The notes under the pieces were generated by a model, which saw only the letters and a list, made by a program, of their open reading frames with translations, did not search any database and was not told the origin of the DNA. A stretch of 47,886 bases of DNA, taken from Pseudomonadota bacterium (GTDB lineage Bacteria; Desulfobacterota; Binatia; Binatales; Binataceae). Below are positions 28,343 through 32,799 of the stretch, piece by piece (the first letter of the stretch is position 1; each line of letters begins with the position of its first letter). A program made the position numbers and the translations under genes. Where the stretch lies: NCBI GenBank assembly GCA_021324855.1, contig JAJPIG010000025.1, positions 1-47,886 of the forward strand, written 5' to 3'.

Positions 28343-29119
28343 ATGGCCGAGTTCAAATTCTTCACCTACGAAAAGCGCGATCATCTCGCAATCGTCACGC
28401 TCAACCGGCCCGAGGTGCTGAACGCGATGCATCCGCCGGCCAATTTCGAGGGCGAGGCGATCTGGAACGATTTCGTCGCCGACAAAAACCTGTGGGTAGC
28501 GATTCTGACCGGCGCGGGCGATCGCGCGTTCTCGGCCGGCAACGACCTCAAGTACACCGCCGAGCACGGATGGGGCGCGTTTCCGAAAGGCGGATTCTGC
28601 GGTCTCACCTCGCGCTATGACATCGACAAGCCGATCATCGGCGCCGTCAACGGTTTCGCGATGGGTGGCGGGTTCGAGCTGGCGCTCTGCTGCGACATTC
28701 TCATCGCGGCCGAGCACGCGCGGCTCGGACTGCCGGAGCCGCGGGTCGGATTGGCGGCAGGCGCGGGCGGAGTGCATCGCTTGCCGCGCCAGATCCCGCT
28801 CAAGATCGCGATGGGCATGATGCTCACGGCGAAGCCGATTCCGGCGATCGAGGCGCATCGATGGGGCGTCGTTAACGAGGTCGTGCCGGCCGGCGAGCTG
28901 ATGAAGACGGCCGAGCGCTGGGCGAGCGAGATCATGGAATGCTCGCCGCTCGCGGTGCGCGCGACCAAATCGATGGCGATGGAAGGGCTTGGACGGCCGG
29001 TCGCGGAGGCGCACGGCGCCAAGTATGACATCATGGACCGGCTGATGAAATCGAAGGATGCGGTCGAAGGCCCGCGCGCATTCGCCGAGAAGCGCAAACC
29101 GAACTGGACGGGCGAGTAA
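28343..29119 (+). CDS. Enoyl-CoA hydratase/isomerase family protein
   Basis: A 258-residue crotonase-fold protein. FSAGNDLKYTAEHG and VNGFAMGGGFELALCCD form the CoA/oxyanion site, with Glu112 (GGGFE) and Glu132 (PEPRVGLAAGAGGVHRLPR) retained as catalytic candidates. The VGLAAGAGGVHRLPR version is typical of a subgroup distinct from the hydratase at 11492. The substrate is unknown. The transposon target site lies 11 bp after its stop, so the gene itself is intact. Confidence 0.9.
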   Translation: MAEFKFFTYEKRDHLAIVTLNRPEVLNAMHPPANFEGEAIWNDFVADKNLWVAILTGAGDRAFSAGNDLKYTAEHGWGAFPKGGFCGLTSRYDIDKPIIGAVNGFAMGGGFELALCCDILIAAEHARLGLPEPRVGLAAGAGGVHRLPRQIPLKIAMGMMLTAKPIPAIEAHRWGVVNEVVPAGELMKTAERWASEIMECSPLAVRATKSMAMEGLGRPVAEAHGAKYDIMDRLMKSKDAVEGPRAFAEKRKPNWTGE

Positions 29120-29129
29120 GAGCCAGCTC

Positions 29130-29137
29130 CAAAATAA
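29130..29137. repeat. Target-site duplication, left copy
   Basis: CAAAATAA directly abuts the left inverted repeat; the identical octamer abuts the right inverted repeat at 32317-32324. Eight base pairs is the target duplication length known for the IS1595 family. Confidence 0.9.
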
Positions 29138-29164
29138 GGCAATAATATACTTGCCTAACCCCGT
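29138..29164 (+). repeat. Left terminal inverted repeat of the transposon
   Basis: The 27 bp start GGCAATAATATACTTG and end TAACCCCGT. They match the reverse complement of 32290-32316 at 24 positions (differences at positions 9, 17 and 23). Confidence 0.92.
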
Positions 29165-29180
29165 CAAGCCGGGCTATGCT
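29151..29180 (+). promoter_or_regulatory. Inward promoter at the left transposon end
   Basis: TTGCCT (29151-29156, inside the inverted repeat) and TATGCT (29175-29180) are separated by 18 bp and lie upstream of the cargo operon, with the DUF3800 ATG at 29205 preceded by GGGAGGG. They resemble sigma-70 -35 and -10 boxes with 4 of 6 matches each. Confidence 0.5.
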
Positions 29181-29204
29181 GCGGAACTGCGGGAGGGCCG
29201 ATAG

Positions 29205-30007
29205 ATGGCTCTCCAAGACAGCTTCATGGCAGCGCACCATCGGCACATGGAGCAGATGGTGGCGGGTTACTACGCCCCCAGGCAGCGGCCGTATGTGACG
29301 ATGTTTTTGCACGCCTATTTTGACGAAGCCGGAAAATTCCACGATCAAGAAGGGCGCATCTGTCTTTGCGGTTTTGTGTCAGATGGCGACACCGCTTTGA
29401 GACCGAATGGCGAGAACTGCTGAAAAAACATCGTCTGCCGAAAATACGCGTGGCGCAGTTCTATTCCCAATGTCGATTGCTTGGGTTAAGCGCGGATCAA
29501 GCAACCGAAGTGCTAATAGAGTTCGTCGATAAAATCCGAGAGCGCGTACAGTTTGGATTCGGGATCGCGGTTGACGGCAAATACTTCCGCCGTAAATTCG
29601 AGATCGCCGGAAAACCGCCGAAAGACCCAAAGCGGTTCTATACGCAGCGGCTCCTCAGACGCATCCGCGACAATTTCATCGATCAGGCTGGCTATTCTGC
29701 ATCGCTCGCGATCACATTCGACGAAGACGAAGAATCTGCCGTTGACTGCTATCAAATCGTCTCACGGCTCCGTCGCGATAATGATGACCTTCGAGAATTA
29801 GTCGCGAGCATCGGATTTGCCAACGACAGGATTTATACGCCCCTACAGGCTGCGGACATTCTCGCGCATCTTACGCGGGAACAGTTGATAAGCGGAAAGA
29901 TGCCTGCACTGCTCCAGTGACTCGCGACGCCTGAGAAGGGTTTTATTCTCGGATTCGACGGTGGGGAACTATGGGACGAGACCGAGATCGATAAGAATTG
30001 GAGGCCG
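29205..30007 (+). pseudogene. DUF3800-family protein, disrupted by a frameshift and an internal stop
   Basis: ATG 29205 has a good GGGAGGG site. The first frame encodes MFLHAYFDEAGKFHD and ICLCGFVSDGD, then loses coding sense. After an apparent one-base deletion near 29383-29392 the homologous reading continues in another frame (RFETEWRELLKKHRLPKIRVAQFYSQ, LAITFDEDEESAVDCYQIV, IYTPLQAADILAHLTREQL). That frame meets TGA at 29918-29920, yet the codons after it (LATPEKGFILGFDGGELW, IDKNWRP) still look protein-like and run without another stop into the nuclease gene. DUF3800 proteins have an RNase H-like fold with Asp residues in FDE and QAAD motifs and occur near mobile and defence genes. Sequencing error is an alternative for each lesion. 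Confidence 0.75.
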
Positions 30008-30586
30008 ATGGAGACTTCAGACGATATGCCCGTGCCGAGCCGAACGAAGACGCGAGTCATCGGGTCGAAATATCCGGCCAGCCTAGCGCCGACCGGATTT
30101 CAAAGAATCGCGCTGGCGGACGGAAGAGCTGTCGACATTGCCCAGGCGACACCAACCTTCTCGCGATGGACCGGCGAAATGCCGTCCGATACGTACAATG
30201 GCAGGCCCGTGCTCCGACTCAGCGACGAGATGGTACTCGCGGAGTTGGCGATTCTACGCATCTTCGAGCAAGACGGTTGGGAAGGTTGTTGGGTTGATAG
30301 CTACAGGAAGAGATTTCTGACCGGCTATTGGCCGGAACCGCGAGCTAAAGACCTGCCTGCGCTACAGAAATTGGTTTTCGATTCGATTCGCGACAAAGCA
30401 GGCGGTACGGGCGGATGCTTCGACGTATTCTGCTGGCGCGACCGTGAACTTAGGTTTATCGAGTCAAAATGGAAAGGACGCGACCAAATCAACGATAACC
30501 AGCGTCGCTGGCTTCAGGCTGCTTTGGAGTCGGGTATCTCAGTCGATTCGTTCTTAATCGTGGAATGGACAATGACTGATGAGTAA
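30008..30586 (+). CDS. PD-(D/E)xK nuclease, VRR-NUC-like
   Basis: A 192-residue protein. The C-terminal half holds a recognisable nuclease core: GGCFDVFCWRDRELRFIESKWKGRD (Asp, then Glu-x-Lys) followed by QINDNQRRWLQAALESGI, the Gln/Trp helix of VRR-NUC-like folds. The N-terminal half (about residues 1-90) is not recognised and may sense or bind a partner. The ATG at 30008 follows TTGGAGG closely; ATG 30026 is an alternative. The frame is contiguous with the broken DUF3800 gene, so an ancestral fusion is possible. It overlaps the HNH gene by 8 bp, implying coupled translation. It is intact although its neighbours are not. Confidence 0.7.
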   Translation: METSDDMPVPSRTKTRVIGSKYPASLAPTGFQRIALADGRAVDIAQATPTFSRWTGEMPSDTYNGRPVLRLSDEMVLAELAILRIFEQDGWEGCWVDSYRKRFLTGYWPEPRAKDLPALQKLVFDSIRDKAGGTGGCFDVFCWRDRELRFIESKWKGRDQINDNQRRWLQAALESGISVDSFLIVEWTMTDE

Positions 30587-31082
30587 GCCCCGACCGCCAC
30601 TATCAAAAGAGTTGCAGTTGCGCGTATTTCGCAAGGATCGTTGGGTCTGCCGATGGTGCAACCGTCCAGTGATCTTCGCGCCAGTGATGCGTCTCATCGA
30701 ACTTCAAATCCGAAGAACTGACAACGGGCAGCCCTTGTCCTACTATGACGCGCATTGGACGCGCAACGGCGCACCGCTGCTCGATGAACTGGGCGCAGTA
30801 ATTGATCACGTCGAGGCGCATTCAACGGGCGGTTCCAGCGAAGAGGACAATCTCGCCACCGCATGTTGCAAATGCAACGGACGCAAGAGCAACGCTTCGA
30901 TGAAGAAGTGGGGCGAGCGACCACAACGCAAGCCGATCAAGGGCAAGTACGGCGAACCTCAGCATTGGGACGGACTGTCAGCGCTGTTTGTAGTGCTTGC
31001 CGAGCAAGACGTAAGCACGCTGTCGGCTTCCGAAAGAGGCTGGCTGAAAGCACTACGCAAAGGAGCAGGAAATGCGGACTAG
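30579..31082 (+). CDS. HNH endonuclease
   Basis: A 167-residue protein with a two-part zinc/HNH module: CRWCNRPV near residues 24-31 and, after an insertion of about 55 residues, VIDHVEAHSTGGSSEEDNLATACCKCNGRKSN, which carries the catalytic His, the Asn residues and the second Cys pair. Family members cut DNA as homing, restriction-like or phage enzymes. The start overlaps the preceding nuclease by 8 bp, so the two nucleases are very probably made together. The stop codon abuts the stop of a minus-strand 52-codon ORF. Confidence 0.87.
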   Translation: MSKPRPPLSKELQLRVFRKDRWVCRWCNRPVIFAPVMRLIELQIRRTDNGQPLSYYDAHWTRNGAPLLDELGAVIDHVEAHSTGGSSEEDNLATACCKCNGRKSNASMKKWGERPQRKPIKGKYGEPQHWDGLSALFVVLAEQDVSTLSASERGWLKALRKGAGNAD

Positions 31083-31237
31083 GCGCTCTTCTTCGACGCG
31101 CTCCGCTTGGTCCGCTTCCGCTGCGGTTCAGCGGCCTTTACGTCCACTTCTTTTTTCGGGACCGCGATCAGCGCCTTCATTACGCGCTCGAATCGCCGGA
31201 AAGAGGAATGCGAACTGGGTTGGGCGTCCTTTGCCAT
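31079..31237 (-). CDS. 52-residue basic protein in the transposon, unknown function
   Basis: A short frame downstream of and co-directional with the transposase. The N-terminal half reads as an amphipathic helix (SSFRRFERVMKALIAVPKKEVD), the rest is Lys/Arg-rich (PQRKRTKRSASKKSA). The organised helix plus basic tail, and stop-to-stop abutment with the HNH gene, suggest a real gene, possibly DNA-binding. Start context is weak (GGAAGA just before ATG). I do not recognise a named family. Confidence 0.5.
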   Translation of the reverse strand: MAKDAQPSSHSSFRRFERVMKALIAVPKKEVDVKAAEPQRKRTKRSASKKSA

Positions 31238-31305
31238 TCTTCCAGTTTACCGTTTCGCGCTTATGTCGGGAAACTGCGCGTCTGTCGCCACGGCCCTGCC
31301 TATAC

Positions 31306-32268
31306 TCAACTAAGCGATGCGCCGGTAGGTTCCGCTTTGCCAGTCAGTTCTTTGTAGGTCAGGCGCTTTCCGGTGGTTTGGGAGAGCGTGCGCTCGAAGC
31401 GTTTGCCATCGCCGGTCTTGCGATTGTTGTAACGGAAAGCTTGTTCGTCCAGATAACAGAAGAGATGGAAGGGTTCGACGCTGACATACGTTCCCTTCAA
31501 GCCGCGCTTCAAGAGCGACCAGAAATTCTCGATTCCGTTCGTATGAATCTTCTCGTTTACGTATGCCTCTGCATGGTCGATCACGTTATGGACATACTCG
31601 CGATCCAAACCGTTGTAGGCAATCTACGCATCGGTGAAGACTTCCGATCCAGCTTCGACGTGCTCGCGAATCTGGGTATGGAGCGTTTCGTGCTTCACGT
31701 CCGGGACGTGCGCGACGCGAATCTCGCGGGTATTGCGATCCAGAATGCCCATAACGACAGCCTTACCGCTGCCGCCGGTTCCGCTGATCGCTTTCGCCCG
31801 ACGGTCCTTGTGCATGTTGCGGGCGAGGCCACCGATGAAGGATTCGTCGGCTTCGATCTCGCCTTCCAGTTTCGTCCAGAACGTACCTTTCTGCATTGCC
31901 AAACGGATGCGTTGGAGCATGAACCACGCGGTTTTCTGAGTAACGCCCAAATCCTTCGCCAGCTCGTACGAGCTGATGCCATTCTTGCAGTTGGTCAACA
32001 GCCAGACGGCAGGAAGCCACTTTTCGAGACCGATCGGGGAGTCTTCGAAGATAGTGCCGACCTTAATCGAGAACTGGCGGCGCTCGTGCTTACCGCTGCA
32101 TTTCCAGCGGCGCTGATTTGCCAGGAAGTGCACCTTGTCGCTACCGCACAGTGGGCATTTAACGATGCCGTCAGGCCAACGCAGGCCGGCCATAAACTGA
32201 AGACATACGTCTGGGTCCTTGAAATAGCGTACCGCGTCCAACAGCGTGCGGGGCAGATGTGTTTCCAT
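31306..32268 (-). pseudogene. IS1595/ISXO2-type transposase with one amber codon
   Basis: Reading through a single TAG (31624-31626) gives about 320 codons, the normal length. The N-terminus has a zinc-ribbon-like CPLCGSDKVHFL segment and FSIKVGTIFEDSPIGLEKWL, typical of the ISXO2 type. The catalytic core shows EIEADESFIGGLARN (first Asp), VFTDA at the amber site (second Asp) and TNGIENFWSLLKRGLKGTYVSVEPFHLFCYLDEQAFRYNNR (third residue region). The codon replaced is Tyr in relatives (FTDAY), one base away from TAG. Termination there would give a 214-residue product lacking the last part of the catalytic core. Promoter and start lie inside the right terminal repeat region. Confidence 0.9.
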
Positions 32269-32274
32269 GCTTCA

Positions 32275-32303
32275 AATCTAGCATCGGGAACGCGGTTAGT
32301 CAA
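32275..32303 (-). promoter_or_regulatory. Promoter for the transposase, inside the right transposon end
   Basis: On the minus strand TTGACT (32303-32298, within the inverted repeat) and TAGATT (32280-32275) are spaced by 17 bp. The -10 box ends only 6 nt before the transposase ATG (32268) and there is no ribosome-binding sequence, so the transcript would start at or next to the ATG, i.e. leaderless. Confidence 0.55.
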
Positions 32304-32316
32304 GTATGTTATTGCC
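32290..32316 (-). repeat. Right terminal inverted repeat of the transposon
   Basis: On the minus strand it begins GGCAATAACATACTTG and ends TAACCGCGT; 24 of 27 positions match the left repeat at 29138-29164. Confidence 0.92.
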
Positions 32317-32324
32317 CAAAATAA
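32317..32324. repeat. Target-site duplication, right copy
   Basis: CAAAATAA, identical to 29130-29137 on the other side of the transposon. Confidence 0.9.
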
Positions 32325-32374
32325 ATCGGGCGGGGGTCAGGAAGTTGGGCAGTCTCAAACCTCCAGTCGATGAA

Positions 32375-32566
32375 GTGCTTCAGCCGTCACAAAAAGAGCA
32401 TGAAAAAACTGAGGTACGAGGCCACTCCGCTAGCGTAGGCGCCCCACGGGACACCGTGACCCGACTAATTGACGCCTCTAAGGTATTGGCATTGCCGGTT
32501 GGCACCTTCTATGTACTGGGACTCCTAATCGTTAATATCGACTTAGGTATGGAGAGCATCCTTTAG
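32375..32566 (+). pseudogene. Possible remnant of a membrane-protein gene
   Basis: An open stretch of about 63 codons (GTG start) ends in a hydrophobic helix (KVLALPVGTFYVLGLLIVNIDLG) and then stops. The polar lead-in followed by one transmembrane helix with VNI-LG resembles the N-terminus of a larger polytopic protein, and the sequence after the stop has no coding character. No ribosome-binding site is evident. This is probably a decayed gene fragment; chance coding is possible. Confidence 0.3.
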
Positions 32567-32799
32567 TCGAGCTGTGCCTAAAACAACCGATTGACCTGCA
32601 GTGGACTTGTAGCGGAATTCCAACGTCACATGACGAGACGAGCAGGGCTCGGCAGGTGAAGCAGGCGGCTGTCTCTTCTTCCACGGCCTCAATGGTCCCT
32701 AAGTCGCCACTAAAAGTTTTGAAGAGCAAATAGGTTGTCGCGCGTACCGGGGAGGTGAGCGGCAGCGAGAATCCCCTGCGAGAGAAATCTCACATCAAT
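32567..32799. other. Intergenic stretch with no gene seen
   Basis: Together with the remnant before it, this region between the transposon and the LLM oxidoreductase gene holds no coding frame that I can support on either strand, and no convincing hairpin plus U-tract or RNA gene. It is less GC-rich than its surroundings. Confidence 0.5.

Follow-up and report, generated by a model that had tools for sequence, protein, structure and literature searches.

The window analysed here, 47,886 nucleotides of contig JAJPIG010000025.1 from an uncultivated bacterium of the family Binataceae, carries three putative nuclease genes beside a transposase gene just downstream of a crotonase gene. The locus raises the question of whether these genes form one mobile unit and, if so, what they would do for that unit or for its host. 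The unit, which spans 29138-32316 (3179 bp), is almost certainly a passenger-carrying element of the IS1595/ISXO2 type with the anatomy of a "transporter IS" (tIS; IS, insertion sequence). It is interpreted here as a decayed nuclease-carrying tIS within a family of mobile cassettes, a reading that, taken as a whole chain including a role against invaders, falls a little short of an even chance.

The initial annotation, made from the sequence alone, had described 27-bp inverted ends identical at 24 positions, a perfect 8-bp direct repeat and a unit of 3179 bp, and all of these were reproduced. The repeat is an exact target duplication, CAAAATAA, which records a past insertion of the element. 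In the whole window, this pair alone combined an exact 8-bp repeat with a terminal match of at least 16/22 (it scored 20/22, and the next two pairs 15/22), and the top score among 60 random windows generated with a first-order Markov model was 17/22. The ends and the duplication are far above chance. The features of the unit and its flank are as follows.

29130-29137, no strand: left copy of the 8-bp duplication CAAAATAA, 10 bp past the crotonase stop codon
29138-29164, + strand: left inverted repeat, 27 bp, 24/27 against the right end
29205-29920, + strand: DUF3800 gene, broken, in frames 29205-29423 and 29366-29920; PF12686; homologue of the intact protein of element L086
30008-30586, + strand: VRR-NUC nuclease gene, open; PF08774, alignments and a FAN1-like predicted fold
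30579-31082, + strand: HNH endonuclease gene, open; PF01844 and conserved relatives
31079-31237, - strand: open reading frame (ORF) for a lysine-rich protein of 52 aa, recurring in sibling IS1595 elements
31306-32268, - strand: IS1595 transposase gene, broken by an in-frame TAG at 31624-31626
32290-32316, - strand: right inverted repeat, 27 bp, 24/27 against the left end
32317-32324, no strand: right copy of the 8-bp duplication CAAAATAA
28343-29119, + strand: crotonase (enoyl-CoA hydratase) gene of the left flank, outside the element; PF00378; conserved in the order

The DUF3800, VRR-NUC and HNH genes follow one another in this order inward from the left end, all on the + strand, and the last two overlap by 8 bp. 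The transposase gene lies on the - strand, its start 48 bp inward of the right end; the earlier description of cargo on the opposite strand is correct if the transposase is taken as the reference. Passenger genes thus lie between the ends together with a single transposase, the arrangement that defines a tIS. The element is present as a single copy in its own genome.

Assignment to the IS1595 family, as originally proposed, was confirmed by profile matches. The ISXO2-like DDE domain (PF12762) was found in both parts of the transposase (58.3 and 60.7 bits), NF033547 matched the first part at 112.4 bits (cut-off 75), and the N-terminal zinc ribbon (PF12760, 40.8 bits) retains its conserved cysteines. 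A target duplication of 8 bp is a trait of the family, and the element therefore combines the DDE domain, zinc ribbon, inverted ends and duplication length of IS1595. The transposase frame is not intact, its in-frame TAG lying two codons past residue 213, the second of the conserved catalytic-domain aspartates; this bears on the activity of the copy and not on its family origin. The DUF3800 gene is not intact either, with a break near 29400 between its two frames and an in-frame TGA at 29918-29920. The initial annotation had mentioned neither these defects nor the 52-aa ORF. Past this TGA the frame stays open into the VRR-NUC gene, and DUF3800 and VRR-NUC may once have been one protein, a match of frames that chance would give one time in three. 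Because the transposase and DUF3800 genes are broken, the copy has very probably lost autonomous mobility, and the statement that the element spreads a nuclease set was not borne out for the window copy. A single DDE transposase would once have moved everything between both ends into an 8-bp target; the present relic could move only if another transposase acted on its ends.

The closest relative found is element L086, 2661 bp long, in another genome of the same family. Its ends match those of the window element, it has its own 8-bp duplication, and it carries a transposase, a DUF3800 and an HNH gene, the transposase and DUF3800 frames being open (DUF3800 is intact at 286 aa). The DUF3800-HNH order is that of the window, with no VRR-NUC gene. 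Identity with the window element is 62% and 81% for the two parts of the transposase and 75% for HNH. Nonsynonymous (dN) and synonymous (dS) divergence between the two elements is 0.30 and 2.6 for the first part of the transposase, the latter near saturation, and 0.17 and 2.0 for HNH. These values indicate strong past purifying selection on the relatives and, with the breaks seen here, point to once-working genes now in decay in the window copy.

The identities first suggested for the three cargo genes held, each scoring over its Pfam cut-off: DUF3800 at 23.1 bits on the second frame only (cut-off 21), VRR-NUC at 25.8 bits (cut-off 23.8) and HNH at 37.3 bits (cut-off 21.4). Conserved motifs are present in VRR-NUC and HNH, and the region of VRR-NUC common to its relatives begins near 30065. 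The HNH protein resembles the HNH of IscB and Cas9, without the remainder of those proteins. Identification as IscB was rejected, as the match was limited to the HNH region and the full-length equivalog score was 31 bits against a cut-off of 175. No Cas gene was found among the ORFs of the element. The structure of FAN1's nuclease domain has been solved on flap DNA. The structure predicted for VRR-NUC (predicted local distance difference test, pLDDT, 90.8) aligned with the VRR-NUC domain of FAN1 (4ri8_A) with Z 10.5 and a root-mean-square deviation of 3.0 over 127/173 residues at 18% identity. In the fold search, FAN1 entries filled the first 18 rows and were followed by stand-alone VRR_NUC domains with Z 6.2 and 5.3. 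A model of the fused VRR-HNH protein described below was poor in its HNH half (mean pLDDT 59.4), and for this reason only the VRR model was taken to the fold search. Neither the VRR profile nor the L086 DUF3800 protein had a sequence match in the PDB.

PMC10910872 and PMC11701678 associate DUF3800 genes with putative non-coding RNAs and mention DUF3800 families in Rfam. In window positions 28900-32600, Rfam gave two matches, both far below their gathering scores, and at five of the 19 sibling DUF3800 loci the only structured RNA detected was a tRNA. The 52-aa ORF had no noteworthy match in Pfam or NCBIfam. Small lysine-rich ORFs with a conserved 'VPK' core were seen, in either orientation, in 14 of the 59 delimited elements described below (three of the 14 being the queries), namely the window element (31079-31237, - strand), L086, L089, L091, L092, L094, L096, L104, L107, L108, L109, L112, L201 and L247.

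Relatives of the cargo genes were sought beyond L086. Related HNH genes lie in three different delimited elements, those of the window, L086 and L087. The last (L087 4570-10276, contig 101 of genome G006) belongs to another IS1595 group and measures 5707 bp, its 22-bp ends being perfect and its duplication GAGCAATT; its cargo comprises a DNA methyltransferase gene, an HNH gene 75% identical to that of the window and further ORFs. A further HNH relative, in G002 (L088), had no transposase match within 12 kb. VRR-NUC is rare in the order, being present in 3/41 genomes. It adjoins HNH in G013, and in G014 the two form a single VRR-HNH ORF of 344 aa. VRR-NUC and HNH probably act together. Relatives that keep the gene order of the window but lack the ends, or that have the cargo at this locus but no transposase, were not found; VRR-NUC with HNH does nevertheless occur free of a transposase elsewhere, as the G013 and G014 loci had no adjoining transposase match and no window-type ends around them (element L110 of G013 lies approximately 2.8 kb away). 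A species-level genome collection yielded 18 VRR-NUC loci, of which 12 are from Hymenobacter and two are the G013 and G014 copies. Five Hymenobacter plasmid records, three of which were inspected, contained relatives with 27-30% identity, and none of 42 pattern matches in viral contigs was confirmed. On the Hymenobacter plasmids L005 and L007, the VRR-NUC relatives are annotated as hypothetical and lie near umuD and a Y-family polymerase gene, or near conjugation and Fic genes.

The survey of sibling elements took in 41 genomes of the order, 27 of which were matched by the transposase search. The stretches around most of these matches were grouped into 93 transposase clusters, window included, and a boundary search for inverted ends with an 8-bp repeat delimited 55 of them; 34/93 clusters were left undelimited, some at contig ends. 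As 11/404 random intervals were also positive, a few of the 55 script-delimited elements may be chance matches. Element L095 (6647 bp), with ends unlike all others, was dropped and five were added by hand (L089, L098, L107, L112 and L184), giving a final set of 59 elements of 1549-5707 bp (median 2400). The duplication of L107, which has matching ends, agrees at 6/8 bases, L184 has a 9-bp repeat, and L097, L218 and L225 each have one mismatch in the duplication. The transposase lies close to one end (median 60 bp), and the longest other ORF is convergent with it in 44/59.

When the cargo of the relatives was listed, as had been proposed, every one of the 59 delimited elements proved to have an ORF of 100 aa or more besides the transposase, and none was a bare IS. 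Passengers are not universal in IS1595, because a 1022-bp element on a Methylocella plasmid is bare. This was one of eight plasmid places examined, five of which could be delimited, including L261 with a mismatch in its duplication. In the delimited plasmid elements L257 693-4105 and L258 3442-6045 (Methylobacterium oryzae and Roseomonas marmotae), the cargo includes a VapC-type or PIN-domain gene. The genome of the window itself holds, on contig 20, a distant second IS1595 element of 2198 bp with DUF4145 cargo (L116 2998-5195). On contig 14 of G015, three IS1595 elements lie abreast (L207 3084-11019), and two neighbours have a common 8-bp repeat, AAACAGTT.

The target consensus in 19 close siblings, window included, is the palindromic CTAATTAG, to which CAAAATAA of the window is a looser fit. 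An open frame of at least 150 codons spanned 26/51 rebuilt insertion sites, compared with 93% of 934 control positions. Insertions thus avoid genes, and selection against gene disruption and a preference for AT-rich targets could both be causes. The check originally suggested, a search for an exact empty site of the window copy, found none in the genomes of the order compared, in which the flanks are too diverged. As judged by eye, none of 28 other genomes of the order had an element end in the 70 bp after the crotonase stop, and in G022, the sole other genome of the genus, the contig stops at the crotonase stop codon. The same check succeeded for a sibling. Element L110 (4097-5741, G013), with a transposase fragment and a DUF3800 gene, has its empty site in the sister genome G014, where a single CAAATTAG is present (L115 near 6780) and 489 bp across the junction are 85% identical. 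In another genus, L112 (5040-6853, G005), with DUF29 cargo, occupies this orthologous CAAATTAG and is inverted relative to L110, its flanks matching the G014 site at 71% over 495 bp. The likeliest reading is that L110 and L112 inserted independently into one site.

Among the recognised passengers of the siblings, DUF3800 is the most frequent, present in 11/59 elements (ten in one blastp cluster and L183 by Pfam position); a cargo census, which covered 94 of the 98 cargo ORFs with 100 aa or more, likewise counted 11. GmrSD-type proteins are encoded by L097 and L098 and a GmrSD_N-HNH protein by L207, Panacea by L094 and L211, PIN_10 with DUF433 by L101 and, by blastp cluster and census, L201, and DUF29 by L112 and, on the same grounds, L242. 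A passenger of 329-358 aa, common to L203, L208, L212 and L227, forms one cluster; that of L203 belongs to no Pfam family and matches the PADLOC candidate PDC-S45, with four members in the census. Pycsar-TM-like proteins were detected with weak E-values in L108 and L109, and L107 falls in the same cluster.

One explanation of such variety is neutral hitchhiking, in which neighbouring genes happened to be caught between the ends of an IS1595 element and serve neither it nor the host. The cargo indeed varies between elements, much of it belongs to no family, and two genes have decayed in the window copy. Against this, 9 of the 21 DUF3800 genes over the cut-off in the order lie no more than 2 kb from one of 96 IS1595 transposase places, where 0.067 would be expected (P ~1e-17). 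This over-representation, the strong purifying selection among cargo relatives and the recurrence of related HNH genes in the window element, L086 and L087 make neutral hitchhiking unlikely.

The interpretation as a decayed nuclease-carrying tIS assigns the cargo a function instead. Read inward from the left end, DUF3800, VRR-NUC and HNH would form an operon, and their products (an RNase H-fold DUF3800 protein, a FAN1-like VRR nuclease and an IscB/Cas9-like HNH protein) a nucleic-acid-degrading module. This module would attack invading phage or mobile DNA or RNA, and the host would thereby gain from keeping the element. Such a role for the nuclease genes is possible rather than probable, and it is suggested by the three nuclease folds, the VRR-HNH fusion, the occurrence of DUF3800 in some CRISPR loci and the defence-type genes of the siblings. 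A broader proposal, that IS1595 serves in this lineage as a general shuttle for defence cassettes of one to a few genes, with cargo repeatedly swapped on one chassis, is doubtful. It would embrace DUF3800, GmrSD, Panacea, PIN, Pycsar-TM-like and PDC-S45 genes and many family-less ones, delivered to intergenic and often palindromic targets.

Several observations weigh against these proposals. The window copy holds no working three-part module, since its transposase and DUF3800 genes are broken, and the full DUF3800-VRR-HNH set was seen nowhere else, the window element being the 1/59 that has it. In the fused G014 protein (L003), Pfam calls HNH only and not VRR_NUC, the VRR part being assigned from 54% identity with its window counterpart, and the Hymenobacter VRR-NUC loci are without homologues of the partners, bar a weak HNH match in L006. 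The earlier suggestion of a mobile defence or competition module found no convincing match in PADLOC 2.0.0 (library 2023), which gave only weak HNH-region matches for the window cargo (e.g. REase_II, 7.7e-5); three sibling DUF3800 proteins had no match at all. The defence idea rests on sibling cargo. There, 25/59 elements carry nuclease, toxin-antitoxin or defence-candidate genes (DUF3800 11, the DNA methyltransferase of L087, GmrSD 3, PDC-S45 4, Pycsar-TM 2, Panacea 2 and PIN_10/DUF433 2), a raw, uncorrected count, and of 30 further sibling cargo proteins 25 matched nothing in Pfam at E 0.01. Outside the family, no IS1595 transposase lay within approximately 1.5 kb on either side of DUF3800 at 30 loci; these loci ranked near the top by score in a 395-genome sample of the phylum, where a low-scoring IS1595-borne type may be missed. 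Element-borne DUF3800 proteins score approximately 20-47 bits against PF12686, compared with up to 76 bits in that sample.

Two further roles for the nucleases can be weighed against defence. As accessories of transposition or recombination, they would process the DNA ends, branched intermediates or RNA-DNA hybrids of IS1595 movement. The match of the VRR-NUC model to a domain solved on flap DNA would suit this role, as would the recurrence of DUF3800 in elements of two divergent IS1595 transposase groups and the RNase H fold ascribed to it in PMC10910872. Yet 48/59 elements lack DUF3800 and the 58 other than the window lack a homologue of the window-type VRR-NUC, so that neither is needed for movement; VRR-HNH exists without an adjoining transposase, and GmrSD, Panacea or PIN genes occupy the same slot in siblings. 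An accessory role is accordingly improbable. An addiction module, in which a partner restrains a toxic nuclease and loss of the element harms the cell, is just as improbable: the siblings' Panacea and PIN_10/DUF433 genes are typical of toxin-antitoxin modules and VapC or PIN genes are found in delimited IS1595 elements of named plasmids, but there is no recognised antitoxin among the three products, the fused VRR-HNH of G014 and the partner-less Hymenobacter VRR misfit a toxin-antidote pair, and the 52-aa ORF, the sole antidote candidate, is present in just 14/59.

Defence thus remains the tentatively preferred function of the decayed nuclease-carrying tIS. If the broader shuttle proposal were true, DUF3800-VRR-HNH would be a new anti-invader system built of three nucleases, and the passengers without a known family a stock of untapped defence genes. 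Small, exactly delimited transposons are in any case minimal cargo units, in which candidate systems are isolated without guesswork about neighbours, and the link between DUF3800 and IS1595 provides a new, testable setting for DUF3800 function.

The term tIS for elements of the IS1595 family is reportedly due to Siguier, Gagnevin and Chandler (2009). The concept, an IS1595-family transporter IS with passenger genes, is outlined in PMC3129680 and PMC9330008. Like a tIS, the window element has an IS1595 transposase, inverted ends, an 8-bp duplication and passengers unrelated to transposition; its passenger set of DUF3800, VRR-NUC and HNH is absent from the papers found, and its transposase and DUF3800 genes are broken. 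L086 shares its transposase group, end type and DUF3800/HNH order, and differs in its open frames and the lack of VRR-NUC. The literature searched on IS1595 passengers, defence, DUF3800 and VRR-NUC with HNH, which mostly excluded subscription papers, held no survey of such cargo. As far as that literature goes, what is new is the combination of cargo genes and how widely passengers are carried in this lineage, and the tIS anatomy itself is known.

DUF3800 is described, in PMC10910872 and PMC12669027, as an RNase H-fold protein found near Cas12a2 and in V-A2 and VI-F CRISPR loci. The DUF3800 of the CRISPR loci and that of the elements belong to the same Pfam family, but the window element has no Cas gene among its ORFs and element-borne scores are low. 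The VRR-NUC domain of FAN1 has a fold in common with that predicted for the window protein, which lacks the rest of FAN1 and has an HNH partner instead. Tn7-like transposons, according to PMC8649781, carry toxin-antitoxin and anti-mobile genetic element defence cargo. The present family resembles them in that most of its delimited members carry cargo, including genes of these two kinds. It differs in its transposase family and in size, the Tn7-like elements being much larger and the elements described here short single-transposase units with one to a few passengers.

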